From positions 1-64,000 of the forward strand of contig NZ_BAFC01000116.1 in the NCBI RefSeq assembly GCF_000248055.1: a DNA stretch of 64,000 bases, written 5' to 3'. Shown in pieces: positions 43,408-61,034 of the stretch. The notes under the pieces were generated by a model. The model saw only the letters and a program-made list of their open reading frames with translations. It was not told the DNA's origin and searched no databases. Source of the stretch: Gordonia sputi NBRC 100414 (GTDB lineage Bacteria > Actinomycetota > Actinomycetes > Mycobacteriales > Mycobacteriaceae). Each line of letters opens with the position of its first letter. Within the stretch, counting starts at the first letter, position 1. A program made the position numbers and the translations under genes.

Positions 43408-43445
43408 GAAACACCCCCTCATCTGCGTAGATGAGGGGGTGTTTC
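43408..43445 (-). terminator. Original terminator of tRNA-Ser(CGA), displaced by the element
   Basis: GAAACACCCCCTCATCT pairs perfectly with AGATGAGGGGGTGTTTC (17 bp, 4-nt loop GCGT). It abuts the left 31-bp attachment repeat, in the position where the tRNA 3' end would lie without the insertion. So it was the chromosomal tRNA terminator, now 19.5 kb away from its tRNA. It may still stop transcription leaving the element. Confidence 0.85.
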
Positions 43446-43472
43446 TGGCGGTGGCGGAGGGATTTGAACCCT
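43442..43472. repeat. Left attachment site with tRNA-Ser 3' remnant
   Basis: A 31-bp sequence beginning TTTCTGGCGGTGGCGGAGGG and ending GAACCCT is identical to 62908-62938. It holds the acceptor 3' strand and T-arm of tRNA-Ser(CGA) on the minus strand but no more of the tRNA, so it is the truncated target copy. Confidence 0.93.
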
Positions 43473-43563
43473 AATCGGACCTCCTGGCCCGGTGCCGATA
43501 TGCCCTCTCACCTGCGGTTTGAGGTCATCTGACATCACATCAGATCAGTCGATTTCATGGACA

Positions 43564-43584
43564 AGTGTGGGCAGAATGTGGGCA
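43564..43584. promoter_or_regulatory. Putative integrase arm-type sites, left
   Basis: AGTGTGGGCA at 43564 and AATGTGGGCA at 43575 are direct repeats with an 11-bp period, about 90 bp inside the left attachment site. The same pair with the same spacing and orientation is at 62821-62841, inside the right end. Placement and helical phasing fit arm-binding sites for the integrase N-terminal domain. Confidence 0.55.
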
Positions 43585-43624
43585 CCATGGGTAGGAACGA
43601 TCGCTGCGCACGCGGGCAGGCAGA

Positions 43625-44806
43625 TTACTGTCGGTTGAGTACCCGCATTACGTGATCGCACCTGTACCGCTTAGCATCCCCGGGATAAAGCGGCTGCATC
43701 TCGCGGAGAATCCCCAGGTCCACGAGCATCAAGATCGCCTTCTTCGCCGGAGGGTACGTAACATCGTGCAGCTCGGCCGCCTGGGGAATCGTAATGATCG
43801 GATATCCAAGCAGACTGTCCGCGATGTTGTTGACAACACCACGAGCCTTGGCGGTTGCTAGTCGTTCCTTGAGGTCGATTTGGAACTCAAGTAGCTCCTC
43901 GATTCGCTGGACCCCATCTTCTGCTTGGTGATGTACCGCCTCACAGAAGAATTTCACCCACGAATCAAAGTCGCCAGTCTTACTGATGCCCAAGAGAAGG
44001 TCCATGTATCGGTCCTTGCGCTCTTCCAGCCACGGAGAGAGGTTGAGCACTGGGTAGGTCAAGGCGCCAGCCGTTACCAACTGAAGTGTGACGATCAGGC
44101 GCCCCAGCCGACCGTTGCCATCTGAAAACGGATGGAGCGTTTCGAACTGATAGTGAGCCATGGCGATTTTGACCAGGAGCGGGTAGTCGTCGTCCCGATG
44201 AATCCACTTCTCCCACTCGGAAATGCCTGCTACCAACTCATCCCCGCTTGGGGGTGGAACAAACCGTGAGGACTCTATCCCCTTGGTTCGCTCGCCGATG
44301 TAGACATTCGTTTCGCGCAGCTTCCCCCTGTCCCAGTTGTCTCCCCTTGTTCCTTGAACTAGAACCGCCTGGAGCGGTGCGATGACGTTGAGGCAGATGG
44401 GTTTGATCTTTATCAGCCTCAGGGCTTCCTCTGCTGCGCGTACATAGTTCATGACTTCTCGAACCTCTGCTCGACGATTTTGCTCGTCCACGAGGTCTGC
44501 CTCTAGCACCTCTTCCAGGGTGGCGTATGTGCCTTCCAGTGCGGATGTACTTTGAGCTTCACGACGGAGCGCAGGACGTACCAGCAGAGCTGGATTCGGC
44601 AGACGCTTGACAGCGAAGTCGAGGCGACCAACAGACATGCTTGCCTCATCAGCGAGCTTATGGGCCTTCAAGCTAAGACCGACCTCCGCAGGGAGGGGAT
44701 CAGGGACGTATGCGTAGTGCCGGTAGTCCTTGCCCAAGTAAGCGTCGTGACCCGAGATGGGCGTCAGGCGCCCTACTGGCGAGTCCCGGAAGTCTTCAAG
44801 CTGCAC
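43625..44806 (-). CDS. Fic domain protein with N-terminal inhibitory motif
   Basis: 393 aa. The Fic active site HPFSDGNGRLGR (about residues 225-236) transfers AMP (or another nucleotide moiety) to target hydroxyls. An inhibitory helix motif, S-x-x-x-E-G (STSALEGT, about residue 87), marks the class II self-inhibited type. A winged-helix-like domain occupies the C-terminal 100 residues (IITIPQAAELHDVTYPPAKK). No separate antitoxin is next to it. Upstream are repeated GTTATAGC sites. Lower GC than the chromosome. Role in defence, toxicity or regulation unproven. Confidence 0.88.
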   Translation of the reverse strand: MQLEDFRDSPVGRLTPISGHDAYLGKDYRHYAYVPDPLPAEVGLSLKAHKLADEASMSVGRLDFAVKRLPNPALLVRPALRREAQSTSALEGTYATLEEVLEADLVDEQNRRAEVREVMNYVRAAEEALRLIKIKPICLNVIAPLQAVLVQGTRGDNWDRGKLRETNVYIGERTKGIESSRFVPPPSGDELVAGISEWEKWIHRDDDYPLLVKIAMAHYQFETLHPFSDGNGRLGRLIVTLQLVTAGALTYPVLNLSPWLEERKDRYMDLLLGISKTGDFDSWVKFFCEAVHHQAEDGVQRIEELLEFQIDLKERLATAKARGVVNNIADSLLGYPIITIPQAAELHDVTYPPAKKAILMLVDLGILREMQPLYPGDAKRYRCDHVMRVLNRQ

Positions 44807-44848
44807 CGTTATACCTTCAGTCGCATTCGTTTAACGAGGCAGGGACTT

Positions 44849-44907
44849 GTTATAGCCTCGTCTACAAGACCCTGATAGGGTTATAGCATATCGGGAAAAG
44901 CTATAAC
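44849..44907. promoter_or_regulatory. GTTATAGC operator array upstream of the Fic gene
   Basis: GTTATAGC occurs at 44849 and 44880, and its inverse GCTATAAC at 44900, the last two forming an inverted repeat with a 12-bp spacer. The sites lie in an AT-rich stretch 43-100 bp before the Fic start and probably flank its promoter. The Fic protein itself, through its C-terminal winged-helix-like part, is a candidate binder. Confidence 0.55.
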
Positions 44908-45103
44908 TAACACTTGTGTGACTATACCCACGACTAGGCACGATGCGACAACATTGCTGACGTCAAGTGACCTGAGACACACTCCCTCTCACCCAACGGC
45001 CTCGATCTTGCGGAGGGTTCGCGATCCGGGCGGCAGACCGGAGGGGTGATGCTCGACGGGGCGTTCTCGCATGAGCGAGATCCCGCAGCGGCGCCATCTT
45101 TCC

Positions 45104-45385
45104 CTAACGTTTCAGAACCCGAGGCGACCGTGGGGACATCCCTGACGCCAAGAGTGGCGCCAAGGGTGACTCCACAGCACACAGCGCTTCCTCCATCAAC
45201 CCATACCGCATACGTTCCAGGAGGCGGGCAATATCGTCATCGGTGAACACCCAACGGTTGCCAACCTTGCGCGCACAACCTGCGTACTTGCGGCCAGGGC
45301 GCAGATTCTCCATCAGCGTTCTACGAGTGATGAACTCCCGACCAATCACTTCGTCGACCACGAAGTCTAATGAACGCAGGGGCAC
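45104..45385 (-). CDS. Small helix-turn-helix (excisionase-like) protein
   Basis: About 93 aa from GTG 45385 (VPLRSLDFVVDEVIG). EFITRRTLMENLRPGRKYAGCARKVGNRW followed by FTDDDIARLLE is the MerR/excisionase helix-turn-helix plus wing pattern (given here in two parts around GRKYAG). The GTG lies 5 bp after the stop of the zinc-ribbon gene, so they are co-transcribed. It may bind DNA near the left attachment site or regulate cargo. Confidence 0.6.
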   Translation of the reverse strand: MPLRSLDFVVDEVIGREFITRRTLMENLRPGRKYAGCARKVGNRWVFTDDDIARLLERMRYGLMEEALCAVESPLAPLLASGMSPRSPRVLKR

Positions 45386-45390
45386 AGGGT

Positions 45391-45792
45391 TCAGTCCTGC
45401 ACTTTGCGTATTGGCTTCTTCACCTCGAGGAACTTGCCCTCCATCTTCGACGCCTCCGTTGACGGACGATGCCGAACAGGCTGCGAGCGCTGCCAAGCAA
45501 GACGCTCAGCTCGATCAGCGATCGACTGATCAACCGGAGCCGCAGGCTTCACCCGCGAGGCCGGCGCCGCATACGGCTGAGCATTGCCCATCTTGCTGTA
45601 CTCACCGCACCCTTGGCAGTAGAGCCGCTTCTTCGCAACCAACGGGGCCGCAGCGCCAGCAACACCGACCGTCGCGACACCCGCAGTCAACCCGATGATC
45701 TTCGCCCGACGAGTCCGCTTCTCCGAAAAGTTTCGACCACCACAGCTCCAGCAGCGGAAGTTCCCATCGGCATCAACCTGGATGTCCTTCAT
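45391..45792 (-). CDS. Zinc-ribbon protein with a hydrophobic segment
   Basis: 133 aa from ATG 45792 (MKDIQVDADGNF). Two CxxC knuckles, CWSCGGRNF and CQGCGEYSK, flank a basic patch (EKRTRRAK) and a hydrophobic stretch (LTAGVATVGVAGAAAPLVA) that may be one membrane helix. The rest is Ala/Pro/Lys-rich. No family recognised. First gene of a two-gene unit with the helix-turn-helix protein. Confidence 0.55.
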   Translation of the reverse strand: MKDIQVDADGNFRCWSCGGRNFSEKRTRRAKIIGLTAGVATVGVAGAAAPLVAKKRLYCQGCGEYSKMGNAQPYAAPASRVKPAAPVDQSIADRAERLAWQRSQPVRHRPSTEASKMEGKFLEVKKPIRKVQD

Positions 45793-45971
45793 CACTCGAC
45801 GATAGAGCGCAGCAGCGCCAGAAACTGCACAGACAATCCGATCTTCGACCGATCAGACGACGAAGCGGCCTCTGACAAGCAGCCGGTGACCTCAGTAACG
45901 CTTAGGTCGGCAGGCGTTCCATTTGGAACACTCAATCGAGGCATACCTGAACTATGAAAGGCGCAGCCTCA

Positions 45972-46769
45972 ATGACTGATGTGACTGACGATCAACGTCG
46001 CCTTGCCGAGACGCTAGATCGAATGAGTGACACCTGAGAGCGATTCCTTGAACGATCAGACAACCTACAAAGGCCGCGATCATCCGGTCAGGAAGCGATC
46101 GTTCCCTGCCTCATCGGACTCGCCTCACACACTGTCGATCTGGCAGAGGCCGCAAGGGACTTGACCTCAAGCAGCAGTCATTCAAGTGGCCTTGTGGCGA
46201 TGCCTCTGGTCAGAGCGGCCTTTGAAGGGGCGATCACAGCGCAATGGCTTGTCCATGTGCCTGACGCCATTGAGGCTTGGGTGAACGAGCATTCCCGGCT
46301 CACAACAAATCTCGTAAAAGGGCTGAGTGAGTCCAGCAGCGCCGACTTTCGAGACGCGGCCGGTGACGTGGAGAGAAATCGAGTTCTCAACAGCCTTCCT
46401 ACAACGTCCACGACACAAGCCCGCAAGTTCAACGAAATGTGTGAAGACCTCCAGATGCCCATTGATGCTTACACCTACTTCCGGCTGGTAAGCCAGTATG
46501 CTCACCCGTCGGTTGAATGCGTTGACCTGTACATGGACAGGTCAAGCAGTGCGCCTGACGCAATACTGCTTCGTCGCCACGCGCGGGTCGACTTCAGCGG
46601 GTGGCTACATCTGCTGGCACTCTCGGTCCTCTGGGCCATTGCGGCAGCAAGCACCTGTGACAAAGCTCGACGCACTCGGTCTGAGATACAGGCGTACGGA
46701 CGCGCACTTAGTGTCGAACCTTGGCTGAAACTCTCTGACCAAGCTTGGTGCCGCCTGCATGCCAACTGA
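45972..46769 (+). pseudogene. Gene interrupted by an in-frame TGA
   Basis: A frame opens at ATG 45972 (MTDVTDDQRRLAETLDRMSD), meets TGA at 46035-46037, and continues in the same frame with coding-like sequence (ERFLERSDNL...) to a stop at 46769, for about 265 codons. A one-base change (TGG to TGA) would explain it. The remainder resembles DUF5677-type helical proteins (MPLVRAAFEGAITAQWLVHV). Restart from TTG 46161 or ATG 46200 could give a shorter product. The only rightward gene in the cargo zone besides 48127. Confidence 0.7.
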
Positions 46770-46840
46770 CGACGAAACGCTGCTCGTCGCCGGATCGTCA
46801 TGCACGACGTAACCAGCATTTTTGCGGGAGCCATCAAGAT

Positions 46841-47758
46841 CTAGGACACCAAACCCGCTGCCCTGAAATTCCCAGACCCGTAGCCGGTCCGAACGGCTAT
46901 GCCCAACGGGAGCCAGCTATTCACTCTGACCTCGAAGGATTTGAAGAGATCCATCATGTCTCGTTCGGGTTTCGAAGGCAGAAGCACGGCCTTGCGCTCG
47001 CTGTTGACATACCGGTGATAGTCGAGCACCTGCCCCAGCGCCAACCTCAGTGTGTTGCGGTCAGTGCTTGCCTTGACCTCAATCAACTCGTCTGCGGTGA
47101 CATCGAACAGATCCGTTGCAAGATCCGAGCCTTCATCTCGCGGAATCCGGTGCCGCATGACCGTATGCGCGGCATCGCGCAGGAAGTCGCAGTAACGCTG
47201 CTGCAGGGCAGCTTCCCGCCGACGGCGCTCCTGAGGTTCCGAAACGACTGCGTCCACCTCGAACGATTCCGCGACGTTCGACTCTGGAGGGACGAGTACA
47301 GCACCAGAAGTCTTCTTGCCCCCAGTTTCAGACTCTGCGCTAGTGGTCGCAGCCCCGTCGAGATACCAGCCGAACCTCTCAACGAGCCTGTCGAAGACCA
47401 GCTCGTTGCTCACTCTGGTGAATCCGCGGAACGCATGCGGATTGCCGTACTGGTCCAACCCGTAGACGTCAGACCACACTGATTCGGTTGACACTTCCTC
47501 AGCCGTTCCTCGCAGGTCACGAGCATCTTGCAGAGAATAGACTTTGTCGTAAGTATTGCCTTGGTACCAAATGAGATTCGCGAACTCCTGGTTCTCGAAC
47601 ACAGTCCCCACCCGGCCGACGAAGTAGAGCGTTCCGTCGCCTTGGAACAAGATGAGATCCCCTCGCTCGGGGTGCACAGTGTCCTTGGCATAGCCAAAGA
47701 ACCGCGAGTTCCCTGACGGATTGAGCGAGAGGCGTGACGCCCGTTCACCTTCAGTCAA
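46841..47758 (-). CDS. Putative PD-(D/E)xK restriction endonuclease, 5' end uncertain
   Basis: 305 aa as read from TTG 47758. The C-terminal half has a nuclease core: DLFDVTADELIEVKAST (acidic residues then ExK) followed by ALGQVLDYHRYV, the Q-x-x-x-Y helix of RecB/restriction-type nucleases. The N-terminal half (GDLILFQGDGTLYFVGRVG) may be a PUA/EVE-like base-reading domain; that is a guess from pattern. The frame stays open upstream to about 47877 without a start, and an ATG-led frame (47865) runs alongside, so a frameshift near 47820-47850 is likely. Confidence 0.65.
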   Translation of the reverse strand: MTEGERASRLSLNPSGNSRFFGYAKDTVHPERGDLILFQGDGTLYFVGRVGTVFENQEFANLIWYQGNTYDKVYSLQDARDLRGTAEEVSTESVWSDVYGLDQYGNPHAFRGFTRVSNELVFDRLVERFGWYLDGAATTSAESETGGKKTSGAVLVPPESNVAESFEVDAVVSEPQERRRREAALQQRYCDFLRDAAHTVMRHRIPRDEGSDLATDLFDVTADELIEVKASTDRNTLRLALGQVLDYHRYVNSERKAVLLPSKPERDMMDLFKSFEVRVNSWLPLGIAVRTGYGSGNFRAAGLVS

Positions 47759-47865
47759 CGCCTCTCGAAACGGCGCGGACTCGAAGTTAATCGGAGACTC
47801 GACAGTCTGCTCAAAGTTGTGACGCTTGGCGCGTAGGGGCGCAGAGGCTGCACGAAGATCTCCAT

Positions 47866-48126
47866 GTGAGGATTATTACCGAGCCCTGTGACAGCCCCAG
47901 GCCGCATGCCCCCACTCCCACCACCCACGGCGCCCTCAGGGCATAGCGCCGCTTTCACACACAGAGCCCTCAGGGGGCCAGGATGCGCTCTGACGTCTGG
48001 GTTCAGGGACGCAGATGCCCCTGGGAGGGTGACCCCCTGCCAGGAGGGTCAGCCACCTCAAGGCATATGGCTTCTCTCCCCCCGGACACCCCCTCCCCCC
48101 GGTGGGATTCAAGCTAGCCTTCTGCC
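47866..48126. other. GC-rich gap containing the left long inverted-repeat arm
   Basis: No gene seen between the nuclease gene and the small gene at 48127. The stretch is rich in C-runs and short hairpins (for example GGCGC...GCGCC near 47925). Positions 48031-48084 match, in inverted orientation, 48431-48485. Candidate packaging or regulatory region. Confidence 0.6.
48031..48084 (+). repeat. Long inverted repeat, left arm
   Basis: Shares with the right arm, in order, GACCCCCT, GGTCAG, CCACC, GGCATATGGCT and TCTCCCCCCG, over about 54 bp with a few mismatches and one indel. Points inward toward the 92-aa gene. Confidence 0.8.
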
Positions 48127-48405
48127 ATGGCGTCCCCCGGACAAGCGAAATTCATTGCGAACCGACAGCGCGAGCTGGCCAAACTGCACCAGTTTGCGAA
48201 GGGTATCGACGAAGACCTACCCGAGTACCAACCACTGTTCGACGAGGCTCTAGACCTGTCGTCCGGGCAGGCAACGGCGAAGATCGAGTCACTGTACGAC
48301 GAGATCGTGGCGTTTCGGCGCCAGCACCGGATCACGAGGTGGATCGGCAAGGACGGCAGATACGAGCTAGAACCGCGAGCGTGGCCAGACGACCCCCACC
48401 ATTGA
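48127..48405 (+). CDS. 92-aa protein between inverted repeats
   Basis: Starts MASPGQAKFIANRQRELAKL and contains LSSGQATAKIESLYDEIVAF, an AT/SxxQ..FI...L plus LS..(E/Q)A...I..L pattern seen in small phage and plasmid proteins (DUF3072-like, from memory). No signal or membrane segment; highly charged, helical. Encoded opposite to the main operon and framed by 55-bp inverted repeats. Function unknown. Confidence 0.65.
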   Translation: MASPGQAKFIANRQRELAKLHQFAKGIDEDLPEYQPLFDEALDLSSGQATAKIESLYDEIVAFRRQHRITRWIGKDGRYELEPRAWPDDPHH

Positions 48406-48430
48406 CTTAGATCCGCCCGCGGAAAAAAGG

Positions 48431-48485
48431 CGGGGGGAGAACAGCCATATGCCCTGGGGTGGCCTGACCTGGGGGTGAGGGGGTC
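48431..48485 (-). repeat. Long inverted repeat, right arm
   Basis: Inverted partner of 48031-48084. On this side the C-run is followed, reading the minus strand, by GCCTTTTTTCC, giving it an intrinsic-terminator look for the leftward operon or for the small gene. The right arm ends 16 bp before the HNH gene stop. Confidence 0.8.
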
Positions 48486-48500
48486 CCTGCCCCACCACGT

Positions 48501-48935
48501 CTACCACCACCGACGGTTGGTCTCGTAGACGCGGCCGCCGTTCTCGTAGTAGGTGCTGCCGTGATCGTCGGTGAGTGGACGGTCTTCGGTGGGGATGCTG
48601 CCGTCGGGGTGGAGTTGCCACGAGCCTTTGGGCAGTGCGCTGTCGGGCTCGTGGCTGTACGTCCGGGTCGGTCGTTTGTCGCCGGCCTGGCGGTTGCAGT
48701 GGCGGTGAGCTGCGGCCAGATTGGAGAGCTCGAAGGGTGCGCCGCCTTGGCTGAGGGGCACGATGTGGTCGATGGTGAGTTCGCCGGGGTCGAGATGTGG
48801 TGCGTCGGGGTTGATGGGTTGGCTGCAGAATGCGCAGTCGAGTCCGTCTCGGCGGGCCCGGTTGATGAATCGGTCTCGGATGCGTCGTCGTTTGCTTGCT
48901 TGTCGTGACCATTCGGTCTGGGCGGTGTTCGGCAC
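48501..48935 (-). CDS. HNH endonuclease
   Basis: 144 aa. Zinc knuckles CAFCSQPI and HRHCNRQ flank the HNH core ELTIDHIVPLSQGG...ELSNLAAAH. Many long-tailed phages place an HNH protein beside terminase and cos, where it aids DNA packaging; here there is no terminase, but a repeat-rich non-coding region lies immediately downstream. It may serve packaging by a helper phage or be a homing-type nuclease. ATG 48935 (MPNTAQTEW). Confidence 0.88.
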   Translation of the reverse strand: MPNTAQTEWSRQASKRRRIRDRFINRARRDGLDCAFCSQPINPDAPHLDPGELTIDHIVPLSQGGAPFELSNLAAAHRHCNRQAGDKRPTRTYSHEPDSALPKGSWQLHPDGSIPTEDRPLTDDHGSTYYENGGRVYETNRRWW

Positions 48936-48938
48936 GGC

Positions 48939-49652
48939 CTAGTCCTGTGCTGTGACGATCTGTGGGGCCTCGGTGGATGTGCGCTCGCGGACGCGCCGGT
49001 CTACTTCGGTGATGATGCTGTCTGCGTAGGCGCGGTCGCGGTGTCGGTTGTCGATCATTGCTTGGTGGATGGTCTCGGCGATCTCTTCACCTCGTAGCGC
49101 GCATTCGGTGGGTGAGAGTTCGTTGGTCTCGATGCCGACGATCCCGGCGATGGCGTGGGTGGGATCGGGCAGGGTGACGTATGTGCGGCTCAATGCGTGC
49201 TGGGCTTGGCGTCGGTCGTAGGCATCGCGCACTGGTTCCCAGTGGTGGGCGAGTAGTTGCCGGTTGGTTGCCGGTGCATCGGAGCTGAGGTTGTTGACGA
49301 GCTGCGCGAGTTGGCTGGCGTCGGCGTAGCTCACCTTGTTGGGGTCGGTGGGCAGCGAGCTCAGCCATGCGAGATCTGCGGGGGTAAGTTCTTTCTGTCG
49401 CTGCTGGCTGGCCGGGACTGGGCGGACGTCGGCTGCGGGGTGGCGGTAGCTCTTGGCTACGTCGGCAACCGACAGGCCACGCGCTACGGCCTCAGCGTAG
49501 TCACGGGTGACGGCCGGCACGTCTGGCTGGGCGGCGTAGTAGCGGAGTCTGCCTGCCGCGAGGCCAGGGCTGGCGTCGATACCGATGAGGGTGTCGGCGA
49601 GTTGGCGGCTGGTGAGTGTGACGCTGGTGGCGGGTTCTGCTGTCGAGAGCAT
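48939..49652 (-). CDS. Unknown element protein
   Basis: 237 aa. No recognised family, no signal or membrane segment. Mostly helical with a short conserved-looking centre (LTPADLAWLSSLPTDPNKVS) and an acidic C-terminal helix. It sits 3 bp upstream of the HNH gene and 29 bp after the coiled-coil gene, in the tape-measure operon, so a structural or assembly role is possible but not shown. Confidence 0.6.
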   Translation of the reverse strand: MLSTAEPATSVTLTSRQLADTLIGIDASPGLAAGRLRYYAAQPDVPAVTRDYAEAVARGLSVADVAKSYRHPAADVRPVPASQQRQKELTPADLAWLSSLPTDPNKVSYADASQLAQLVNNLSSDAPATNRQLLAHHWEPVRDAYDRRQAQHALSRTYVTLPDPTHAIAGIVGIETNELSPTECALRGEEIAETIHQAMIDNRHRDRAYADSIITEVDRRVRERTSTEAPQIVTAQD

Positions 49653-49681
49653 CGGTTGTCCTATCTGTCGGGTGGTGGTGG

Positions 49682-50218
49682 TTAGAGCGCGTAGGCGAGG
49701 TCTCTGAACAGCTTGGCTTTGATGTCGTCACCGTTCTGTGCGTTGTGGGTGACGAGTGACCAGAGTTCTTCTGCGTCGTCGTAGTCGTAGCTCTTGGCTG
49801 CGGTGTAGGTGTTGATGACGCCGGCCCAGGCGCGGTCGTATCCAGCACGCAGGATGGTGCGGATGAGGGGGCCGTCTGAGTTGTCGAGCGCCTGGTTGAG
49901 CAGGGTGATCGCCTGCTCTTCGGTCTCGAGGCTGGCGACCCGGTCGGCGGCGTCGCGCCAAGAGATCTCGTTCGAAGTGTCCACGCTGGGCCTGCCGACG
50001 AGCCGGCGCCGCAGCACGCTGATGCGGTCTTCCCGTGCTCGGTCTTCACGAACGCGGATGTCGGCGAGCTTGCGTTCGGTGGCTTCGCGCGCTTCGGCGA
50101 TCATGCGCTGCTTGGCATCGACGGTGTAGTCGGCGCTCGCCTCAATGGACTGCGAGGTCTGGCGGTATTCGCCGCGTGCCTGCTCTGCTTCGTCGCGGAA
50201 TGTGTTGCTGTCGAACAT
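49682..50218 (-). CDS. Coiled-coil element protein downstream of the tape measure gene
   Basis: 178 aa with a good ribosome site (AAGGAG, 9 bp before ATG 50218). Residues 1-90 are a heptad-like, charged coiled coil (REATERKLADIRVREDRARE); the rest is helical with YTAAKSYDYDDAEELW. No family recognised. It lies directly after the tape measure gene, so it could be a chaperone or partner for it; phage tail chaperones usually precede the tape measure gene instead. Confidence 0.6.
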   Translation of the reverse strand: MFDSNTFRDEAEQARGEYRQTSQSIEASADYTVDAKQRMIAEAREATERKLADIRVREDRAREDRISVLRRRLVGRPSVDTSNEISWRDAADRVASLETEEQAITLLNQALDNSDGPLIRTILRAGYDRAWAGVINTYTAAKSYDYDDAEELWSLVTHNAQNGDDIKAKLFRDLAYAL

Positions 50219-50262
50219 GATTGGTTCTCCTTCTCTATGTGTGGTTGGTTCTGTGGTGCGGA

Positions 50263-53200
50263 TCAGAAACCTGATAGCGCCGCACGCTGACGGGCCTCGG
50301 CGAAGCGGGCCTGACCGCTATCGGAGCGGGCAGCGGGCAGCGATCGGGAGTGCTTCAAGAGTTGCTTGTTCAGTTCGATGAGTTGGTCGAGCCTGTCGAC
50401 GAGTTGGCCTGTGTCGCCGCCACCCTCAAAATCGCGGTCGACCATCTTCTCGAACGCAGCAGTCTGCCGCGGCGACAGCACCCGCTCCGGCGTGATCACG
50501 TTCTTCGCCATCAACCCCGTACCGATCGCCTGGCCGCCCTGGTCGTACCAGTTGTTCGCCTCCCAATGAGCGCGAGCACCCATCGGCGTCTGGTAGCGGT
50601 CACCTACGTACTTGTCGTAGACCTCGCCCTGGTCCTTGGGATTCTCAGTCGTTGGCGATTTCCCGGCTGCGGCATATACCTCGGGGCCTGCCTGTGGGAG
50701 TCCCCAGTATTTTCCGTTTCGCGCCAGTGGGTTCCAGCTCGATTCCTTCGTGATAATCCAGTCCGTGTCCGTCCACGGCTGACCGTCACGCCACGCCTCA
50801 CGAAGACCGGACTTGAACTCGTCCTTCACCGACCCCGACGACGAACTCTTCTTCGTATCGACACCTGTGTCCTCGCCCACCTTCGGACGATTCACACCCG
50901 GATCAGTCGGCTTGAACGACCCCCGCTTGTACGTGTTGGGCTGATACTGATCGGACGGCGCGAACTGGCGCTGCGACTTGTCGAACTCCGACTTCATCTG
51001 AGACTTGTTGCCCTCGTAGCGGGCTTTCATCCCAGACACATCAGAGTCGTACTTTGTCTTCAGCTCGCGCGAGCGGCGCTCGTACTCCGACTCCGAGATG
51101 GCGTGCGAATCCCGCAACGAATCCAACGACCGCTGATCCCGATTGAGTTGGGCCTCACGCGCAAACTTGTCGGCCTCCAACTGCTGACCGGCCTTCAAAT
51201 CATTCGACTCGTACCGTTGCTTCAACGACAGCGACCGCTCAGTGTCACCCTTGATCTGCCCGTACTTCTTACCGAGTGTGATCACCGAGTTCTCGTAGTC
51301 GTGACGCTTCCCCAACTCGTCCTGCTCGTAGGTGTCACGCAAAGACAACAGGCGAACATCTCGTTCGTCGGCAGAGATGCGCTTCGCCTGATAGTCATCC
51401 TCGATCGACGTCTTCGCGTCCTCAAGATCCGACTTCCGCGCATCAGCGGCATCCTTGTAATCCTGATCGAGCTTCTTCTTCTCCGCGTCGTAGTTCTTCT
51501 TCGCGTTCTCCGAATGTTGCTTCTCATACTCGGTGAGCGCCGCCAACCAACCAGGCGAATCATTCGTCGACAACACATCGAACAGGCTCGAAATCTGGCC
51601 TTTGACGAATGCGGCGACCACGTTGCCGGCACGCCCCGAAATGCTTGTGTCGCCGGCTTGCTCGGCGTCCTGGGTGATCGGGTCGAAGCTGTAACCGGAG
51701 TCGATGGACGAATCGATCGATGATCCCGACGCCACCGAATCATCCGATGACGAATCGGAACCCTTTCCGGCGTATTTGGTTTCGTCCTTGACGGGCATCC
51801 AGGCGCGGTTCGTGAACTGTGGATCATCGGCGCCGACGTTGCCGCCGACCATGCCGCCACCGTAGGAGCCACCCATCTCGACGTTCGTTCCGTCAGGCAG
51901 GGTGCCCGCGGTGTGACCACCACCAGGACCACCATTGACCCAGCCGAAACGCATCGACCCGGCAGGCCCTGTACCCGACTTCGCGCCCAGTTTCGCCAAC
52001 TGGTCAGCCTCAGCCGCCGTCGAGAACCGGCCACCAAACGGCGACAGGCCCGCAGCCAACCGCGCAAACGCCGACATGGCACCGGAGCAGTCGCCCCAGT
52101 TCACGCCGCCCCACACGTACGGAGCGCCCGTTAATGGACGAGACGCACCCTTACCGTTCGCCAGGTCCCGCAACTGTTGGCCGGTGACAATGCCACCATC
52201 AGCGAACTTCCGAACCCCATCAAACCCGGACGCAATACCGCGGGTAGCGATACCGGCGAGCGCGCCAGCCCATCCCGACACACCCTCCGGCACCGAATCC
52301 TTCGGCATCACCACAAGCCCGAACATGTCAGCCACCGTCGCCAAAATGCTTTGCGAACGGGCACGCTTGTTCTTCCCCAACGGGATATACGCTTCGCCAC
52401 CCGTCTCCGGTTCAGCCCACTGCACCAAACCCGGACCCGGCATAGCCTTCTGAATCAGAGCCTGATCCGGCGTCTTCCCATTCGCATACGACTCGAGCGC
52501 CGCAATCCCACCATCCGCGTACTGGCGGATCGAACCGTTCGCGTTGCTCGGCGGACCAGCGAAGATCCCATTGCCCGGTGCCATCGGGTTGGTTCCCTGC
52601 TGAAGATTGCGGACAATGATGTCTTTGTATTCGGTCCTCGTCCAGTCCTGCTTCTTTCCCTGATAGTCGGAGTCGTTGGCGGTGACGAGGATGCTCTTAC
52701 CGTTGTTGGTGCGGACCTCCACGCCGATGGTGCGGAGCTTGTCGATCACATCCTGCGCCAATGGCGCGTCAACAGCGATGTTTTTGTTGTTGTCCGCGTG
52801 AACCTTTGCGCCCATTTCCCGCAGCAACCCGAGCACGTCGTTACCGCCAGGTGCGGATACGTTGATCGCCTTGCCCTTGGGCATGTTCTGCAATGTCTGC
52901 GTGACGATCGCGAGCTTCCCCGACGCGTTGTCAGCGGCACTGATCTCGATCGTCTTGCCATCCGGGGACTGCTCCCACTTGATGTGCAACTGATCAAGCA
53001 TGTCGAGGGTCTTCTGGGTGACATCCGACGACTGGATCGAAACGGTCTTTTGATCGGGCTGCTGCTCGAACGCGGCCTTGATCAGCCCAAGATCCTGCAC
53101 CGTCTCGGATGCCCCACTGAGCCGGACAGAGAGATCGACAGCCTTCCCGCCGAGTTCCCCGTAAAGTTCGCGGATCTTCTCAATCGGCTGTCCTGTTGCG

Positions 53201-55632
53201 GTGGCTAGTTGCTGGAACGCAGTCTCCATCGACTTTGCGCCCTGCGCGATCGCCGCCTGATCACCTGTCGCCACTAGCTGCGCCTGCTTGTCCGCGAGAT
53301 CAGCGAGCGTGCGCGACAGTGCAGCACCCGATTCGGTGGTGGCATCCAACTGGTCGCCCTTGAACGCATCAGCGGTGATACCTTGCGCAGCGTCGGCGAC
53401 CTTGCGGATCGCTTCGGCCTGCTGCGCGATCGCCTCGGTCTTGCTACGCGCAGGATTGAGCGCATCCATCGCCGTCTTCAACGCGTTGAGCTTGTCCGAC
53501 GACGACGAGCTCTTATCGCCCATGACTCGGAAAGCTTCGCCCAGCTCAGTGATCCCCGGAACTACTCGACGCCCGATGTCCTGCTGCGCAACAACCTTGT
53601 CGCGCAATCCCTGCATGTCCTGAGCGGCTTTCGCGCCGCCGTCACCCGCAGCACGTAGCTGTGCCGTGAATGTCTTCCAGTCGCCAGCAGATCCACCCAA
53701 CGCTCGAGCCATCTGCTGCGACGTCAAGCCCGTCTTATCCATCGCACGCTGAATGTTCTGATACGCGCCGGCCTGCTCGTCCATGCTGGCCGAGATGTCA
53801 TCAGATGACCCGCGCCACCCCATCACGACATCACCGATCATGTCGGAGGCGACGTTGGTCCACTTCGCATCGGCCTTCGCACCCGCATCAACCTTCGCGC
53901 GGTACTCATCGACCTGCTCACCCAACTTCGCGTACACCGAATCAGTGACGGCGCCGCGCGTCTGAATCAGCAACTGCCCGGTGACCTTTTGTGTCTCCGA
54001 CAGATCCTTCAACGCTGCCGCGTACGCCTCGGTCTCCTGCTTCTGCTTCGCCGCCGACGCCGCCCACGCAGTACCGGCAATCGCCGCACCCGTGAGCGCC
54101 AACCCGAGCGGGCCGCCGAACACGCCCGCAACCGCAGACCCCGCAGCCTTGAGTCCAGTGCCCGCAGCCGCAGCCACACCAGCCGTACGACCGAACCGTT
54201 GCGCACCATCCGACGCGCCAATGAACGCACCCTGCATCCGACCAACCACAGGAACGTGAGTCCCCAGAGTTGCCACAGCCGAACCGAACCGACCGATCTC
54301 CGTGCCACCCATCGCGGCAAGTTGCCGCTGCACAGCCATCTGATCAGAGAAGCCCCGCAAACTCGTGGTCGCAGAACGCAGACCCGTCGTCATCGGCGTG
54401 ATCGCACCCGTAACGCGTCCCAAGATCGAGGGAATCGTCTTGAATGCCAACCATGCTGCGACCAGCCCGGTCACGACACCCTGATTGTTCTTCATCAAGC
54501 CTGCTGTCGCCTCAAGCAGCGGGTTCAGCGCACTCAGCGCCGTTGTGCCAGCTTGAAGCGCAGTGAGAAACAGTTGCCAACCCGAAACACCCAGCGCCGC
54601 AGACGCCTGACCCAACGACGCCACAACCTGCCCGACAGCAGGAGCCGCAGCCTTCAACGCCTCGGAAAGCTGACGGAACGTCTCTTTTGTATCGCCAAGT
54701 ACGCCGGTGTCTTTGAGGGCTTCGAACGCCTCACGGACCTTAGGAGCCCACTCCCCAAACACCTTCGCGTCGAACGCCGACGCGAGCGCCTTCGCCTTCG
54801 GAGTCAACTCATCAATCCGAGTCGTCATCCCCGTCAGTGCGGTAGGCAGACGGTTGAACCCCGGCTCCATCGCCGCAGCACCCAGGCGACCCATCGCCGC
54901 TTTCAGATTCTCGAAGCCGCCCTTGACCGTCGACGACCCAATCGTCTTCGCCGCACCACCAACATTCGCCTCGATAGCCTTGAAGAACATCTCCGACGAA
55001 ATCTTGCCGTCGCCGGCCATCTTCTTCACTTCACCACCAGTGACACCCGCCTCCTTGGCGAGCCACTGATAGATCGGAATGCCTCGGTCCGCAAGCTGAT
55101 TCAGGTCATCGGTGTAGGCCATCTGCCCGGTCTGCACCTGGTTGAGGATGGCCCCCATGTCGCCGAGAGACGTCCCCGCAATGGCCGCGGTATCCGCAGT
55201 CATCGTCAAATACTTGGTGAGATCCTTGCCAGGCTTGACCCCAGCAGCCATCGCGGATGCCGAGATGGTCGCCGCATCACCTAGCCCGTACGCGGTGCCC
55301 TTCACCGCAGCCAACGCCGAATCCATCACCTTCGCCGTGGTCTGCGTCGACGCACCGAGAGCGCTCAGCTTCCCCTTTGCCTGGTCGATCGCATCCAGAC
55401 GCTTGAAGCCAGCCTCGAACGCGGTACTAACCGCCGACATGCCCGCGCCGACAGCCTTCGACGCACCGATACCAAGCGCGGTACCCATCGCCGTAGACAT
55501 GGCGCCGCCCATCGACCGACCAGCACGAGTCGCCTCACGATCAGCCTGACCAAGCGCCGAACGGATGCCGGGACCGAGGCGAGAAGTTTCCGCGACGATT
55601 GATAAATATGCGGTCCCGATTTCCGTGGCCAT
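50263..55632 (-). CDS. Tape measure protein with NlpC/P60-like and lytic transglycosylase modules
   Basis: 1789 aa. Residues about 20-260 are a tape measure domain (AGFKRLDAIDQAKGKLSALG, NQVQTGQMAYTDDLNQLADR). A long helical, Ala-rich region with hydrophobic segments follows. Residues about 865-985 hold repeated units of about 37 residues (KTVSIQSSD, KTIEISAAD, KAINVSAPG, KNIAVDAP, KSILVTAND). A Cys/His cell-wall peptidase module (WGDCSGAM near 1180, GGGHTAG near 1240), a charged coiled coil (about 1385-1570) and a transglycosylase-like module (KESSWNPLARNGKYWG near 1630) come next. In siphophages this protein sets tail length and helps DNA entry. No other tail gene is present. Confidence 0.93.
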   Translation of the reverse strand: MATEIGTAYLSIVAETSRLGPGIRSALGQADREATRAGRSMGGAMSTAMGTALGIGASKAVGAGMSAVSTAFEAGFKRLDAIDQAKGKLSALGASTQTTAKVMDSALAAVKGTAYGLGDAATISASAMAAGVKPGKDLTKYLTMTADTAAIAGTSLGDMGAILNQVQTGQMAYTDDLNQLADRGIPIYQWLAKEAGVTGGEVKKMAGDGKISSEMFFKAIEANVGGAAKTIGSSTVKGGFENLKAAMGRLGAAAMEPGFNRLPTALTGMTTRIDELTPKAKALASAFDAKVFGEWAPKVREAFEALKDTGVLGDTKETFRQLSEALKAAAPAVGQVVASLGQASAALGVSGWQLFLTALQAGTTALSALNPLLEATAGLMKNNQGVVTGLVAAWLAFKTIPSILGRVTGAITPMTTGLRSATTSLRGFSDQMAVQRQLAAMGGTEIGRFGSAVATLGTHVPVVGRMQGAFIGASDGAQRFGRTAGVAAAAGTGLKAAGSAVAGVFGGPLGLALTGAAIAGTAWAASAAKQKQETEAYAAALKDLSETQKVTGQLLIQTRGAVTDSVYAKLGEQVDEYRAKVDAGAKADAKWTNVASDMIGDVVMGWRGSSDDISASMDEQAGAYQNIQRAMDKTGLTSQQMARALGGSAGDWKTFTAQLRAAGDGGAKAAQDMQGLRDKVVAQQDIGRRVVPGITELGEAFRVMGDKSSSSSDKLNALKTAMDALNPARSKTEAIAQQAEAIRKVADAAQGITADAFKGDQLDATTESGAALSRTLADLADKQAQLVATGDQAAIAQGAKSMETAFQQLATATGQPIEKIRELYGELGGKAVDLSVRLSGASETVQDLGLIKAAFEQQPDQKTVSIQSSDVTQKTLDMLDQLHIKWEQSPDGKTIEISAADNASGKLAIVTQTLQNMPKGKAINVSAPGGNDVLGLLREMGAKVHADNNKNIAVDAPLAQDVIDKLRTIGVEVRTNNGKSILVTANDSDYQGKKQDWTRTEYKDIIVRNLQQGTNPMAPGNGIFAGPPSNANGSIRQYADGGIAALESYANGKTPDQALIQKAMPGPGLVQWAEPETGGEAYIPLGKNKRARSQSILATVADMFGLVVMPKDSVPEGVSGWAGALAGIATRGIASGFDGVRKFADGGIVTGQQLRDLANGKGASRPLTGAPYVWGGVNWGDCSGAMSAFARLAAGLSPFGGRFSTAAEADQLAKLGAKSGTGPAGSMRFGWVNGGPGGGHTAGTLPDGTNVEMGGSYGGGMVGGNVGADDPQFTNRAWMPVKDETKYAGKGSDSSSDDSVASGSSIDSSIDSGYSFDPITQDAEQAGDTSISGRAGNVVAAFVKGQISSLFDVLSTNDSPGWLAALTEYEKQHSENAKKNYDAEKKKLDQDYKDAADARKSDLEDAKTSIEDDYQAKRISADERDVRLLSLRDTYEQDELGKRHDYENSVITLGKKYGQIKGDTERSLSLKQRYESNDLKAGQQLEADKFAREAQLNRDQRSLDSLRDSHAISESEYERRSRELKTKYDSDVSGMKARYEGNKSQMKSEFDKSQRQFAPSDQYQPNTYKRGSFKPTDPGVNRPKVGEDTGVDTKKSSSSGSVKDEFKSGLREAWRDGQPWTDTDWIITKESSWNPLARNGKYWGLPQAGPEVYAAAGKSPTTENPKDQGEVYDKYVGDRYQTPMGARAHWEANNWYDQGGQAIGTGLMAKNVITPERVLSPRQTAAFEKMVDRDFEGGGDTGQLVDRLDQLIELNKQLLKHSRSLPAARSDSGQARFAEARQRAALSGF

Positions 55633-55653
55633 CGCATCCCCGATCAGTTTGTG

Positions 55654-56073
55654 TCAGGCCACTTTTCGCGCAGCCCGGTAATGTTCCAGGTCTTCTCGGG
55701 CGATCCGCCACGCGTTGCCGACTCGGGTCGCCGCAATCCTGCCCTCAGCGATCGCTTTCCGTACCGCTCGGTCAGAGATTCCGAGTAGTCCCGCGGCTTG
55801 CGTCGTGGTCACCCACGCTTCTGAGGTTGCCGCAGGTTCCGCAGATGCCGCCGTTTCGGTTCCGGTTGCGGCACTTCGCCACTCGAGCGCGGCAAGGTGT
55901 ACCGCCATCAGAACACTGTCCACCTCGCTATCGCAGCCACGCACCGAGATTCGTAGTTGGTTGAGGTTGCACCGCTTCTCCAGCCATGCCGCGACCCGAC
56001 CAGGGACAACCACTATTCGTCCGTGTTCGCCGTGAATGTATCCCTCAACGGGTCGTTGGAAACCATCAGTCAC
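55654..56073 (-). CDS. Helix-turn-helix protein upstream of the tape measure gene
   Basis: 139 aa from GTG 56073 (VTDGFQRPVEGYIHG). The C-terminal 50 residues are an excisionase-type helix-turn-helix (WVTTTQAAGLLGISDRAVRK then RVGNAWRIAREDLEHY). The N-terminal part (GRIVVVPGRVAAWLEKRCNL) resembles a small phage regulatory domain. The GTG overlaps the upstream stop by 8 bp; the tape measure start is only 21 bp downstream, so it is the immediate upstream partner in the operon. Confidence 0.7.
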   Translation of the reverse strand: MTDGFQRPVEGYIHGEHGRIVVVPGRVAAWLEKRCNLNQLRISVRGCDSEVDSVLMAVHLAALEWRSAATGTETAASAEPAATSEAWVTTTQAAGLLGISDRAVRKAIAEGRIAATRVGNAWRIAREDLEHYRAARKVA

Positions 56074-56401
56074 GATCGCCCCCGCTCCCCGAATCCAGCA
56101 GAGGGGATGCCGACGCGACCACCGTGATCGCCGTGGGGATTCCGAGTTGATCCGCCCAGTACCGCACGACCGACGATGCGGACTGGTCACCTGTATGCGC
56201 CGCAGCCTCCGACACTCGACGTCGCCCACGTCGCCGCCAGGCCGCGGGTAGCTCGGCGTGCCGGCCATGATCGGCCATGAAGCGCTCAGCATCACAGACA
56301 GGCACAGAGCACACGAGAGCGAGGCCGATAGCTGTGAGGCACTCTTCACCATCGACGAGGTATGTCAGCGCCACCGACCCGTCTGTATCCGGTCCGGTCA
56401 C
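56066..56401 (-). CDS. Small element protein of unknown function
   Basis: 111 aa. Begins VTGPDTDGSVALTYLVDGEE, contains two Cys (ALVCSVPVC) and an Arg-rich stretch (AWRRRGRRRVSEAAAH), then a helix (SSVVRYWADQLGI). No family recognised. Its start and stop overlap the neighbouring genes (ATGA-type overlaps), so it is translated with WhiB and the helix-turn-helix protein. Confidence 0.55.
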   Translation of the reverse strand: MTGPDTDGSVALTYLVDGEECLTAIGLALVCSVPVCDAERFMADHGRHAELPAAWRRRGRRRVSEAAAHTGDQSASSVVRYWADQLGIPTAITVVASASPLLDSGSGGDRD

Positions 56402-56706
56402 GCCGCCTCACCGCCCTTCCGCGGCCTGCCGGGTTGGCGCGGAACCCGGCCCGCCGTGACCGCATGCTCTTGATCAGCTCTCGAGTCCGCCCAAGAGCGG
56501 CACGCATCAATGACGGGGCACAAGCCACATATGCGTGCAGCTGCTGTGTGCCGGTACGCGGCATCGGCAACGTCCTCGTCTGCGTCGCGAGCGTCGAACA
56601 GGCCAGGCGAATCGACACATGCGGCACCCGAGAGATTCGCAGTGCCCTCGAGGATCGCCGCGAGAAGCGACACCTCACCACCTTCCCTGCGCGTTGCCGC
56701 CCTCAT
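56398..56706 (-). CDS. WhiB-family iron-sulfur regulator
   Basis: 102 aa. Four Cys in the WhiB arrangement: ACVDSPGLF, then ICGLCPVIDAC (CxxCxxxxxC), followed by a short loop and a basic C-terminus (RVPRQPGRPRKGG) that can contact DNA. WhiB proteins are confined to actinobacteria and their phages, where phage copies can block host WhiB function or superinfection. The ATG overlaps the AAA gene stop. Confidence 0.85.
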   Translation of the reverse strand: MRAATRREGGEVSLLAAILEGTANLSGAACVDSPGLFDARDADEDVADAAYRHTAAARICGLCPVIDACRSWADSRADQEHAVTAGRVPRQPGRPRKGGEAA

Positions 56707-58022
56707 CGGTCGCCTCCGTCGTCTGCTGCCGATGGATTGCGCGGGAACGGAACTACTGAGGCCCCTTCAGTGCCAGAGTGCTCCCTGACACTCTGAGGTC
56801 CGCCACGTTTGCCAACTTTGCCACCTTTTGTGGTCATCGACCTTTTGGGCGCGTCTCCTACCTGCGAACTTGGCAAAGGTGGCGAAGATGGCGCTTCTCG
56901 CGAGTAGAGCCCACCTGTTGCCAAGACGGTTCCTGCGAGGTCTTCACGCAACCAGTACCACCGCGCTCCTGTCCCACCGGACTTCACCGCTCGAACGACC
57001 AGAGACTCCTTGTTGATGCGGTCCTTCGAGCGACGCAACTGGTCCTTACTCCAGCCGTTGCCCGTGGCCTCGTCGACGATTGCCTCGTGCCAAACGGGGC
57101 CATCCTTGAGGAGATCAAGCAGCCAACCGTCGATCGGCTGATCTGAACTCTCCGCGGAACCTCGTGCAGCGTCACGGAGAACATCTCCAACTCTGCGATC
57201 TGAGTTACCCAGGATGACGAAACGCGCGACATCAGCCGACTTGCCCGAGGCTGTCGTCACGGTCTGCGAATCAATGCGGTAGCGCAGTGCGAGTGATTCG
57301 TCGCCGAGACTGTTTTTCTCCTGCGACAGAATCCGCTCGCCGTCCTCGGATTCTGGATCTTTCGCGAACCCAAAGACGGCGCGTGCGATCTCACCGAAAG
57401 CCGACGAACCATTGATGCCCGCAACAACGTCGCCGTTACTGGCCTTGTTCAGATGAGCCACACCGAGGACGATCCCGTTGATGGTCTCGGCCAAGGTGCG
57501 CCACGGATCAAGGATTGCCCGAACCTCGTTGTTACGGTTCACATCCGCTTTGGACCCCAACATCGCCATCAGCGGATCAACGACGACAGCGCACACCTCA
57601 GCCTCAAGCAGTTGCTTCGTGAGATCGTCAATATCTCGTGTGGCCACCGACGAGATCGAGGTCTTGTCGTCGAAGATCTCCTCCACTTCGGGAAAGAACA
57701 CCCGGTTGAGGTCAGCACCATGAGCTCGAAAGCTTGGTTTCACGACATACTCGACCGCTTCTTCGCGGGCGATATAGGCGATGTTGCGAGGCTTCCCGAG
57801 CCAACACCCATCGAGGGTGCCATTGGTGATCTGGGACGCCAACCACCTCGCGCCAGTCGATTTGCCAGCGCCTGGACGACCAGCAAAGAGTGCAGCAGTT
57901 CCAAGGGCCATTCGCCCCCTGCCCTCGTATTCCCATACCCAGGTCGGCACGTCGTCCTTGATGTCTGTTGCCCGCCGCAGGAGCACACGACGTTCGAATT
58001 TCGTCTCCGGCTTCCCGCTCAC
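56703..58022 (-). CDS. RepA-like AAA ATPase (replication initiation/helicase type)
   Basis: 439 aa from GTG 58022 (VSGKPETKFERRVLLRRATD). Walker A is LFAGRPGAGKST and Walker B VCAVVVDPLMAML, with a conserved VAHLNKASNGD (sensor His) as in AAA_25/RepA hexamers of plasmids and phages. A C-terminal winged helix (DGPVWHEAIVDEATGNGWSK) probably binds DNA. It likely allows the element to replicate on its own or with a helper. The start overlaps the companion gene stop (GTGA). Unstructured, basic last 70 residues. Confidence 0.85.
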   Translation of the reverse strand: MSGKPETKFERRVLLRRATDIKDDVPTWVWEYEGRGRMALGTAALFAGRPGAGKSTGARWLASQITNGTLDGCWLGKPRNIAYIAREEAVEYVVKPSFRAHGADLNRVFFPEVEEIFDDKTSISSVATRDIDDLTKQLLEAEVCAVVVDPLMAMLGSKADVNRNNEVRAILDPWRTLAETINGIVLGVAHLNKASNGDVVAGINGSSAFGEIARAVFGFAKDPESEDGERILSQEKNSLGDESLALRYRIDSQTVTTASGKSADVARFVILGNSDRRVGDVLRDAARGSAESSDQPIDGWLLDLLKDGPVWHEAIVDEATGNGWSKDQLRRSKDRINKESLVVRAVKSGGTGARWYWLREDLAGTVLATGGLYSREAPSSPPLPSSQVGDAPKRSMTTKGGKVGKRGGPQSVREHSGTEGASVVPFPRNPSAADDGGDR

Positions 58023-58501
58023 GCCGCAACCTCCCCACGCGCCGAGCAGAGCCGCTCCCACAACGAACGGACCGCGGCTCCCTCTCGAACGAACGTCCGC
58101 CAGGCGTCCGCCTCGGCGCCATCTCGAGCACGCTCCGCGATCGCATCCGCAGCCGAGAGCATCCGCGCCCGCACAAGTTGCGCGAGGATCACGCCCGCGA
58201 ACTCCCACAAACGTTCCGGCGCCGCGTCGGTGGTTACCGCGTCGAGCATCCGGTTCTTCGCGAGCTCACCATGATGGCCCGAATACGCCCCGCTCCTGAG
58301 CAATTCGTCGTTGAGTAGGACGGGTGCAGGTGCTCGCCCGTTCTTCGCCATCTCGAGAGCGGCGTCGAGGCAAGTGGCGGTGGGAGCGTCGAGAAGGCGC
58401 ACCTCGTCTGGCGTGACAACCGAGAGCGCCGACACCACAGAGGCCGCGGATGAGTGAAGTGTGGCAGCGAGCAAACATAGGGTGGCTGACGGATCGTTCA
58501 T
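58019..58501 (-). CDS. DnaB-N-like companion of the RepA-like ATPase
   Basis: 160 aa, helical. LLAATLHSSAASVVSALSVV and GELAKNRMLDAVTTDAAPER recall the N-terminal domain of DnaB-type helicases, here as a separate protein just before the ATPase, an order known for actinophage replication modules. Stop and start overlap the genes on both sides. It probably acts with the ATPase. Confidence 0.6.
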   Translation of the reverse strand: MNDPSATLCLLAATLHSSAASVVSALSVVTPDEVRLLDAPTATCLDAALEMAKNGRAPAPVLLNDELLRSGAYSGHHGELAKNRMLDAVTTDAAPERLWEFAGVILAQLVRARMLSAADAIAERARDGAEADAWRTFVREGAAVRSLWERLCSARGEVAA

Positions 58502-58731
58502 GCGGCGCCCTCCGTTCGCTGGCGACGGTCAGCTGCCTCGTTGCGCCGGCATATGGGGCCGGCACCGACCGCCTTGGATTTCGTTGCGGTGAGGGCCGCA
58601 CCGCAGCAGCGGCACCGAACGGCGAGGATGAGAGTTCCGTCGCGCAGCGCAGCCCGCAGCAGCTTGTCGGCGGGGTCGATGAAATGTTCCGAATACCCGG
58701 CAGGGGTATCGGTAGAATGTCGGTTAGACAT
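58498..58731 (-). CDS. DUF6011-like zinc protein
   Basis: 77 aa from ATG 58731 (MSNRHSTDTPAGYSEHFID). The core CRCCGAALTATKSKAVGAGP followed by ICRR matches the DUF6011 pattern (CxxC...S...GxGPxC), a small zinc-binding protein common in actinophages. Function unknown. First gene of the replication sub-operon, after a hairpin at 58750-58783. Confidence 0.75.
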   Translation of the reverse strand: MSNRHSTDTPAGYSEHFIDPADKLLRAALRDGTLILAVRCRCCGAALTATKSKAVGAGPICRRNEAADRRQRTEGAA

Positions 58732-58749
58732 TGTGATGAGTGTCCTTCC

Positions 58750-58783
58750 GGGCCCGACCTCGAACGCCGCCGAGGTCGGGCCC
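58750..58783. terminator. Hairpin dividing the element's leftward operon
   Basis: GGGCCCGACCTCG pairs perfectly with CGAGGTCGGGCCC (13 bp, 8-nt loop). It lies between the early small genes and the replication genes. No T-run follows; it may attenuate rather than fully stop transcription. Confidence 0.65.
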
Positions 58784-58854
58784 AATGGGTTTGCGTGGAG
58801 ACTTTGGTCAGGAGCCCACGCGAATCTGGTTCGCGCCCACCCAATTGAGGAAGG

Positions 58855-59487
58855 TCAGAATGCTGGGGTATCACCACCTTGATCTGTTTCCGGCGCGTCG
58901 CCCATCGAGCCGATACGCGTCGTCCAGGCGTTGCGTGCTGCGTCTGCCAGCCGGACCCGCATGTCGTAGTCGCCGCCCTGCCGTTCAACGGAATCGAGCA
59001 GAGGCTTGATGACGTGATCAGCCAGTGTGTCGATCGCCGCAGCGAAGACCAACATCAAATGGTCAGTGTCGGCGATGTCGGAGAAGTATTCGCACACAAC
59101 ATCATTCGCGGGCCGGGCAGAGGAAGCCACATCGAACGCGAGACGACAGCCCCACACTTCTTTCCCGGCGATCGACGGCATCGACATCATGCCGTGAAGC
59201 TCTGCCACGCCGTCGTTGTCGACGTAGCTTGGGATCGCGCCAACCGTGTCGAGCCACGGTTCCTCGACGCGGCAACGGTCACGTTCCTCCTCGGCCTCGT
59301 CGCGCATCTTGGCGAGGATGGCGGGCTGTTCGTCCCGCGCCCGTTCGAGATCCGCGAGGAGCTTTCGAGCTGCCGCGGCTCCCGACTCGATCAGCTCGAG
59401 GTCCGCGCGGTGCTGTGCTTCGATGCTCTGATCCACGATCTTCATCGCCTTCGCAACCAGTTCGTCGCCGCCGTCATTTGCATTCAT
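58855..59487 (-). CDS. Unknown early element protein
   Basis: 210 aa from ATG 59487 (MNANDGGDELVAKAMKIVDQ). The N-terminal 80 residues are a charged coiled coil (RKLLADLERARDEQPAILAK); a mixed domain with SYVDNDGVAELHGMMSMPS follows. No family recognised. Its ATG overlaps the stop of the 44-codon gene upstream. Confidence 0.6.
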   Translation of the reverse strand: MNANDGGDELVAKAMKIVDQSIEAQHRADLELIESGAAAARKLLADLERARDEQPAILAKMRDEAEEERDRCRVEEPWLDTVGAIPSYVDNDGVAELHGMMSMPSIAGKEVWGCRLAFDVASSARPANDVVCEYFSDIADTDHLMLVFAAAIDTLADHVIKPLLDSVERQGGDYDMRVRLADAARNAWTTRIGSMGDAPETDQGGDTPAF

Positions 59488-61018: not shown

Positions 61019-61034
61019 ACATAGAATCAGAGTC

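Follow-up and report, generated by a model that had tools for sequence, protein, structure and literature searches.

Two inverted arms in a satellite-like island of Gordonia sputi, within a 64,000-nucleotide stretch of DNA analysed as a whole (the window), closely resemble phage cos sites, and the evidence from comparison with phage genomes is strong that both are cos-like packaging sites. The favoured reading, held at a probability of roughly 0.65, is that these two complete cos-like sites form a dual-specificity packaging locus that widens the range of helper phages. The match of both arms to cos sequence is observed, and cutting of the arms by a terminase is inferred. The locus consists of the following features:

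48031 to 48102, plus strand: arm 1, cos-like site of type C, core CTCAAGGCAT ending at 48066, cosB side rightward
48127 to 48405, plus strand: 92-codon gene of unknown function, in the slot between the cos-like sites
48413 to 48485, minus strand: arm 2, cos-like site of type T, core CCCAGGGCAT ending at 48449, cosB side leftward
48501 to 48935, minus strand: HNH endonuclease, 144 aa (PF01844, E 7e-10; PHROG 338)

The repeat itself is real. The five sequence words that the initial annotation had named as shared are all present, in the order it gave, in 48031-48085 and in the reverse complement of 48431-48485. Alignment of the two arms gives 45 identical columns out of 56 and a score of 62, a value reached by none of 20,000 shuffled arm pairs (maximum score 39). 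The repeat core spans 33 nt, is 88% complementary, and has its halves 346 nt apart. Across the whole 4.95-Mb genome, neither arm has a relative at E <= 0.001 apart from its partner (E 6e-5). The setting that the annotation described also stands, with a single gene between the arms on the strand opposite to the HNH/tape-measure operon and an HNH nuclease gene beside the repeats. This HNH gene ends about 15 bases from arm 2, which occupies the usual place of a cos site after HNH.

Phage genome ends identify what the arms resemble. The genome end lies between HNH and terS in Lucky10, Morkie, and Birdsong, and when the ends are joined, CACTCAGGGCAT meets TGGC in Lucky10, CACTCAAGGCAT meets TGGC in Morkie, and GGCTCAAGGCAT meets TGGC in Ecliptus. 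Arm 1 has CTCAAGGCAT and arm 2 has CCCAGGGCAT at the place equivalent to these joined ends. PMC4929509 gives the measured 3' overhang of Lucky10 as CTCAGGGCAT, and the 10-base core of each arm matches it at 9 of 10 bases; the core of arm 1 is identical to the right end of phage Morkie. Similar sequence lies between HNH and terS in Lucky10, Morkie, G006, G001, G052, G020, G117, G239, and L081, and a different core occurs in Lton, Pitbull, and MooMoo. Two of the marks expected of a cos site are present, namely nearness to a measured cohesive end and a phage counterpart between HNH and terS. The annotation's proposal of a doubled cos/pac-like site that mimics a helper is supported, as both arms match phage or prophage cos junctions, adjoin HNH, and sit within satellite anatomy; the outcome that would have refuted it, a lack of likeness to any phage cos region, did not arise.

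Direct BLAST of each arm against phages returned nothing useful; the probable reasons are that linear records divide cos between their two ends and that the collection lacks the helper. In T and C helpers whose core is GGCAT the sequence reads GGCATWGGC, but both arms carry GGCATATGGC there, and this mismatch indicates that the exact helper remains unseen. A search of the island's own genome found no other strong T or C site. Phage Keelan was also considered as a helper; its record is circularly permuted and offers no comparable end.

The arms differ in cosB type, with arm 1 assigned to C and arm 2 to T, a distinction that the initial annotation did not see. Type T cosB has a C/T-rich run, usually followed by a T run and CC (Lucky10, Morkie, G006, Pitbull, Lton), and type C has CCGAACACCCCCC-like runs (prophages G001, G052, and G020). 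The two types are observed in a scan of both strands of the 64-kb window built from helper sequences alone: arm 1 is the best C match (62, next unrelated 37), and arm 2 is the best T match (46, next unrelated 40), the latter only modestly above background. Among 43 control stretches, non-self C scores go no higher than 41, and a non-self T score of at least 46 occurs once (46), at a Nocardia fusca site that adjoins a TerS gene. The T pattern run over IMG/VR retrieved one contig, with its site between HNH and terS. The strict C-type pattern had no matches, an empty result for a type in which spacing varies. One G009 candidate, with an E-type score of 44, did not look like cos on visual inspection and was set aside.

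Two further models, R1 for T and R2 for C, were derived purely from aligned sites that included both arms, so their matches on the building sites hold by construction. Outside its building set, R1 found two prophages, G117 and G239, in each of which HNH and a T-clade terS flank the site. The G239 site was found by R1 and not listed by R2; in the helper-only scan it has no T score of at least 38 and a C score of 40, despite its T-clade TerS. Small terminase subunits of the C group are 60-66% identical to one another and 30-38% identical to those of Lucky10, Morkie, and G006 in the T group, and they form one clade with support 1.000. Within the genus, T and C cos sequences go with different TerS clades, although the match is imperfect and exceptions occur outside the genus. 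LilSpotty departs from the match, with a T-like cos and a TerS that branches beside the C clade.

Two other readings of the repeats have far less behind them. Paired transcription terminators at a strand switch, suggested in the annotation, could account for an opposite-strand gene flanked by both arms, but 47800-48700 contains no terminator-like hairpins and the arm sequences match cos instead; a search of this interval found neither promoter-like nor intrinsic-terminator-like sites. This reading is rejected as very improbable. The annotation's further suggestion, that the arms bound a very small transposable element with the 92-codon gene as its cargo, draws on the simple picture of one gene flanked by inverted repeats and is scarcely tenable. 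No second copy of the roughly 470-bp unit was found in the island's own genome and no empty site was seen, so the mark of a miniature transposable unit, other copies or empty sites, is missing. In addition, 59 genomes of the genus contain a single occurrence of the exact arm-1 core, and the protein between the arms matches no family, with Pfam, PHROG, NCBIfam, and PADLOC all giving no match. This 92-aa protein has a single relative besides itself in 201 genomes (43% over 79 aa), and a search for phage relatives found none.

The observed anatomy of the surrounding island supports the packaging interpretation. Besides the four features above, it comprises:

43442 to 62938, no strand: satellite-like island of about 19.5 kb, defined by att repeats at both ends and by gene content
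43442 to 43472, plus strand: att repeat at the distal end, an exact 31-bp copy of 62908-62938
43625 to 44806, minus strand: Fic protein of the SoFic defence type (PF02661; PADLOC SoFic E 6e-91)
48939 to 49652, minus strand: 237-aa protein, unknown, no family match
49682 to 50218, minus strand: 178-aa protein, coiled-coil-looking, after the tape measure gene
50263 to 55632, minus strand: tape measure protein, 1789 aa (PHROG 10780, E 0)
55654 to 56352, minus strand: helix-turn-helix protein (PF12728)
56703 to 58208, minus strand: helicase/primase-like AAA protein (PHROG 10729, E 7e-87)
61035 to 61724, plus strand: HTH repressor (PF13560)
61711 to 62868, plus strand: tyrosine integrase (PF00589, PHROG 1)
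62908 to 62938, plus strand: att repeat in the 3' end of tRNA-Ser(cga), whose gene is 62912-63002, minus strand

The island looks like a phage satellite because it combines att repeats, an integrase, a repressor, a helicase, a lone tape measure gene, and HNH without terminase, portal, or capsid genes; its induction and transfer by a helper are inferred. The main island ORFs gave no match to a terminase, portal, or capsid family, although not every small ORF was covered, and the sole exception is a weak terminase-small-subunit match confined to the HTH part of 55654-56352. Three marks of a satellite are present: the element is an integrated island that has an integrase and att repeats, it lacks terminase, portal, and capsid genes of its own among the ORFs tested, and it carries a helper packaging site, the last on sequence evidence alone. 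The island does not qualify as a cf-PICI, which would have its own capsid and terminase genes; none were found. PICIs are marked by an Stl-like repressor that a phage protein lifts and by an AlpA-type activator; on this point the island shows an HTH repressor.

Several island genes have phage connections. DNA related to the HNH gene occurs near the right end of mycobacteriophages, and its relatives adjoin the genome end in Gordonia phages. The tape measure protein, the only tail gene found in the island, shares 44% identity with its counterpart in Gordonia phage Birdsong, from which Gordonia or a close relative is inferred as the probable host. By analogy with PLEs, chimeric tails are suggested by a satellite whose tape measure gene is full length and stands alone. 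Similar tape measure genes encoding 1392-1880 aa are present in the G012, G055, G057, and G058 islands, and by eye, ORFs resembling the 178-aa protein follow the tape measure gene in G012, G057, and G058; this protein is possibly an assembly or capsid factor. A 134-aa protein is encoded at 45391-45795, and in prophage G006 a 68% relative is encoded immediately upstream of the tape measure. Searches of viral contigs turned up no relative of either the 237-aa protein or the helicase.

The arrangement is observed to recur in other islands, which the initial annotation had no means of seeing. Nine islands have att repeats and at least one cos-like site: the window's island, G012, G043, G055, G057, G058, G202, G392, and L031 of Nocardia fusca. 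Two or three sites are present in six of the nine (the window, G012, G043, G055, G057, and G202), and the other three carry one only. T is paired with C in five of the six multi-site islands. The exception is G012, which combines a Lucky10-type site, by eye identical to Lucky10 over about 41 consecutive bases, with a second T-like site (scores 90 and 39). Three cos-like sites, of T, EMsquaredA, and C type, surround the HNH gene in G055 (L053:18333-18815). G202, from another genus, is a 9.5-kb island at tRNA-Met whose C and T sites form a tandem separated by about 80 bp (L124, about 13240-13320, minus strand), and the other five pairs are convergent. Spacing within pairs ranges from about 80 bp to 2.4 kb, with about 130 bp between cores in G057, and the intervening contents are variously the 92-codon gene, HNH, nothing, a 102-aa ORF, several genes, or about 80 bp. 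Such differing contents suggest repeated assembly. In G058, an Ecliptus-like site (35, next 30) is followed by an HNH-like ORF.

No second site was found in the scanned stretches of eight phages or prophages (two scanned whole, six over 15-40 kb), so that multiple sites occur in 6/9 islands against 0/8 phages or prophages (Fisher P = 0.009, computed post hoc and with relatedness ignored). These counts are biased toward cos-bearing islands, as the islands were chosen through shared genes or through cos models, the latter being how G202 and G392 were located. Thirteen other helicase-bearing loci in the genus, among 16 tabulated, have no T or C site scoring at least 46, which confines the design to a subset of islands rather than making it universal. 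In the scanned stretches of the G010 tape-measure island, no T or C site was found.

Further observations surround these searches. The tape measure region of G010 is apparently interrupted by a transposase-like insert, judged by eye. At L031:12942-13274 in Nocardia fusca, a T-like cos is followed by a TerS ORF, and no TerL was found with the panel used. Mixed T/C-like sites occur in G004 (L116, about 16525) and G045 (L118, about 13665), where the G045 site adjoins a capsid-like ORF by eye; these two elements are possibly capsid-forming satellites. Lone T-like cos sites in G019:C69 and G022:C34 (L113:6850 and L114:11510) have near-identical flanks, with no phage genes recognised nearby. L106-L108 of G009 and G017 are islands whose integrase is 97% identical to the window's, without a tape measure gene or known cos. 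Contigs C11 and C2 of G022 (L048 and L050) belong to a set of many small tape-measure-bearing contigs arranged head-to-head, which represent odd amplification or an assembly artefact.

In the proposed mechanism, arm 2 carries the cosB type of one helper TerS clade (T; Lucky10, Morkie, and prophage G006), and arm 1 that of a second clade (C; prophages G001, G052, and G020). Upon infection or induction, the island would excise and replicate as a concatemer. The helper TerS would then bind cosB of its own type and TerL would cut the adjacent cosN, so packaging would begin at arm 2 with a T helper and at arm 1 with a C helper. It would run in opposite directions in the two cases, given that the cosB sides are oriented towards one another. 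In lambda, cosQ is needed to end packaging, and cosN together with cosB to start it, according to PMC6092414; from these roles it can be inferred that a reversed site should be passed and not act as a stop. If the reversed cos is ignored, each packaged unit would be full length, at 19.5 kb compared with 42-55 kb for the helper. A facing pair would also be immune to loss by direct-repeat recombination, which may explain its commonness, again by inference. Cutting, dual use, direction, and read-through of the reversed site are all inferred, and no experiment shows either arm cut.

The pair could instead record a change of helper, in which one arm is active now and the other is a former helper's cos, retained after the island switched helpers by acquiring a new cos region. 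A single new site would suffice for such a switch, and the contrast within G012 between a nearly Lucky10-like cos and a weaker second site fits this history. Moreover, deletion of cos2 in EcCICFT073 raised transfer and did not lower it, as stated in PMC6092414. Yet most pairs retain both cores, the window's arms are still identical at 45 of 56 columns, and T with C in five of six multi-cos islands, around different spacers, is unexpected for a passing state. A retained former cos is therefore unlikely, but it cannot be dismissed.

More doubtful is the idea that the facing layout is itself functional, through two-sided terminase loading, bidirectional packaging by one helper, or a soaking up of TerS that restrains the helper. 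Convergence in five of six pairs and the closeness of the G057 cores favour it; the same two types stand in tandem in G202, however, so facing is unnecessary, and both the wide range of spacings and the difference between the two sites on the TerS-recognition side tell against it. A dual-specificity locus remains the preferred account. Its broader extension is an actinobacterial class of satellites with modular cos arrays that were assembled repeatedly and hold a separate site for each terminase type (T and C, with the EMsquaredA type added in one island), so that unrelated helpers could package one element, in opposite directions depending on which helper is at work. For this extension the chances are about even.

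Helper range governs the spread of a satellite and its cargo, here a SoFic-type defence gene, and a readable cos array would allow helper range to be predicted from sequence. The natural pairs of TerS clade and cosB type would also serve for studying DNA choice by small terminases. The literature searched, which mostly excluded subscription papers and bioRxiv, yielded no description of cos sites for different terminase types occurring as a pair, nor of satellites of this kind in Gordonia. Two cos sites per satellite and satellites with their own tape measure gene are already known.

The closest parallel lies among cos-packaged PICIs. Like the present island, EcCICFT073 is a terminase-less satellite with two helper-like cos sites, both shown to work, and SaPIbov4 is reported with two putative cos sites; these statements, like those that follow on EcCICFT073, rest on PMC6092414. 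In EcCICFT073, both cosN match the same phage, whose cosB the authors could not identify, whereas the island described here belongs to other bacteria and has cosB sides of two types tied to different TerS clades, and its kind of pair mostly faces inward. SaPIbov5 likewise uses helper cos and more than one helper, phi12 and phiSLT, but according to PMC5052747 these helpers share basically the same cos, unlike the different types standing side by side here. PLE satellites of Vibrio cholerae carry their own tape measure protein and form chimeric tails, according to PMC12987554; the likeness is limited to a satellite-borne tape measure gene, which here is of Gordonia phage type. Mobilizable plasmids with several oriTs, such as pEC156, widen their helper range through multiple transfer sites, as discussed in PMC11389934. 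That system concerns conjugation and the present island concerns packaging, in which the cos array would correspond to the several transfer origins of such plasmids.
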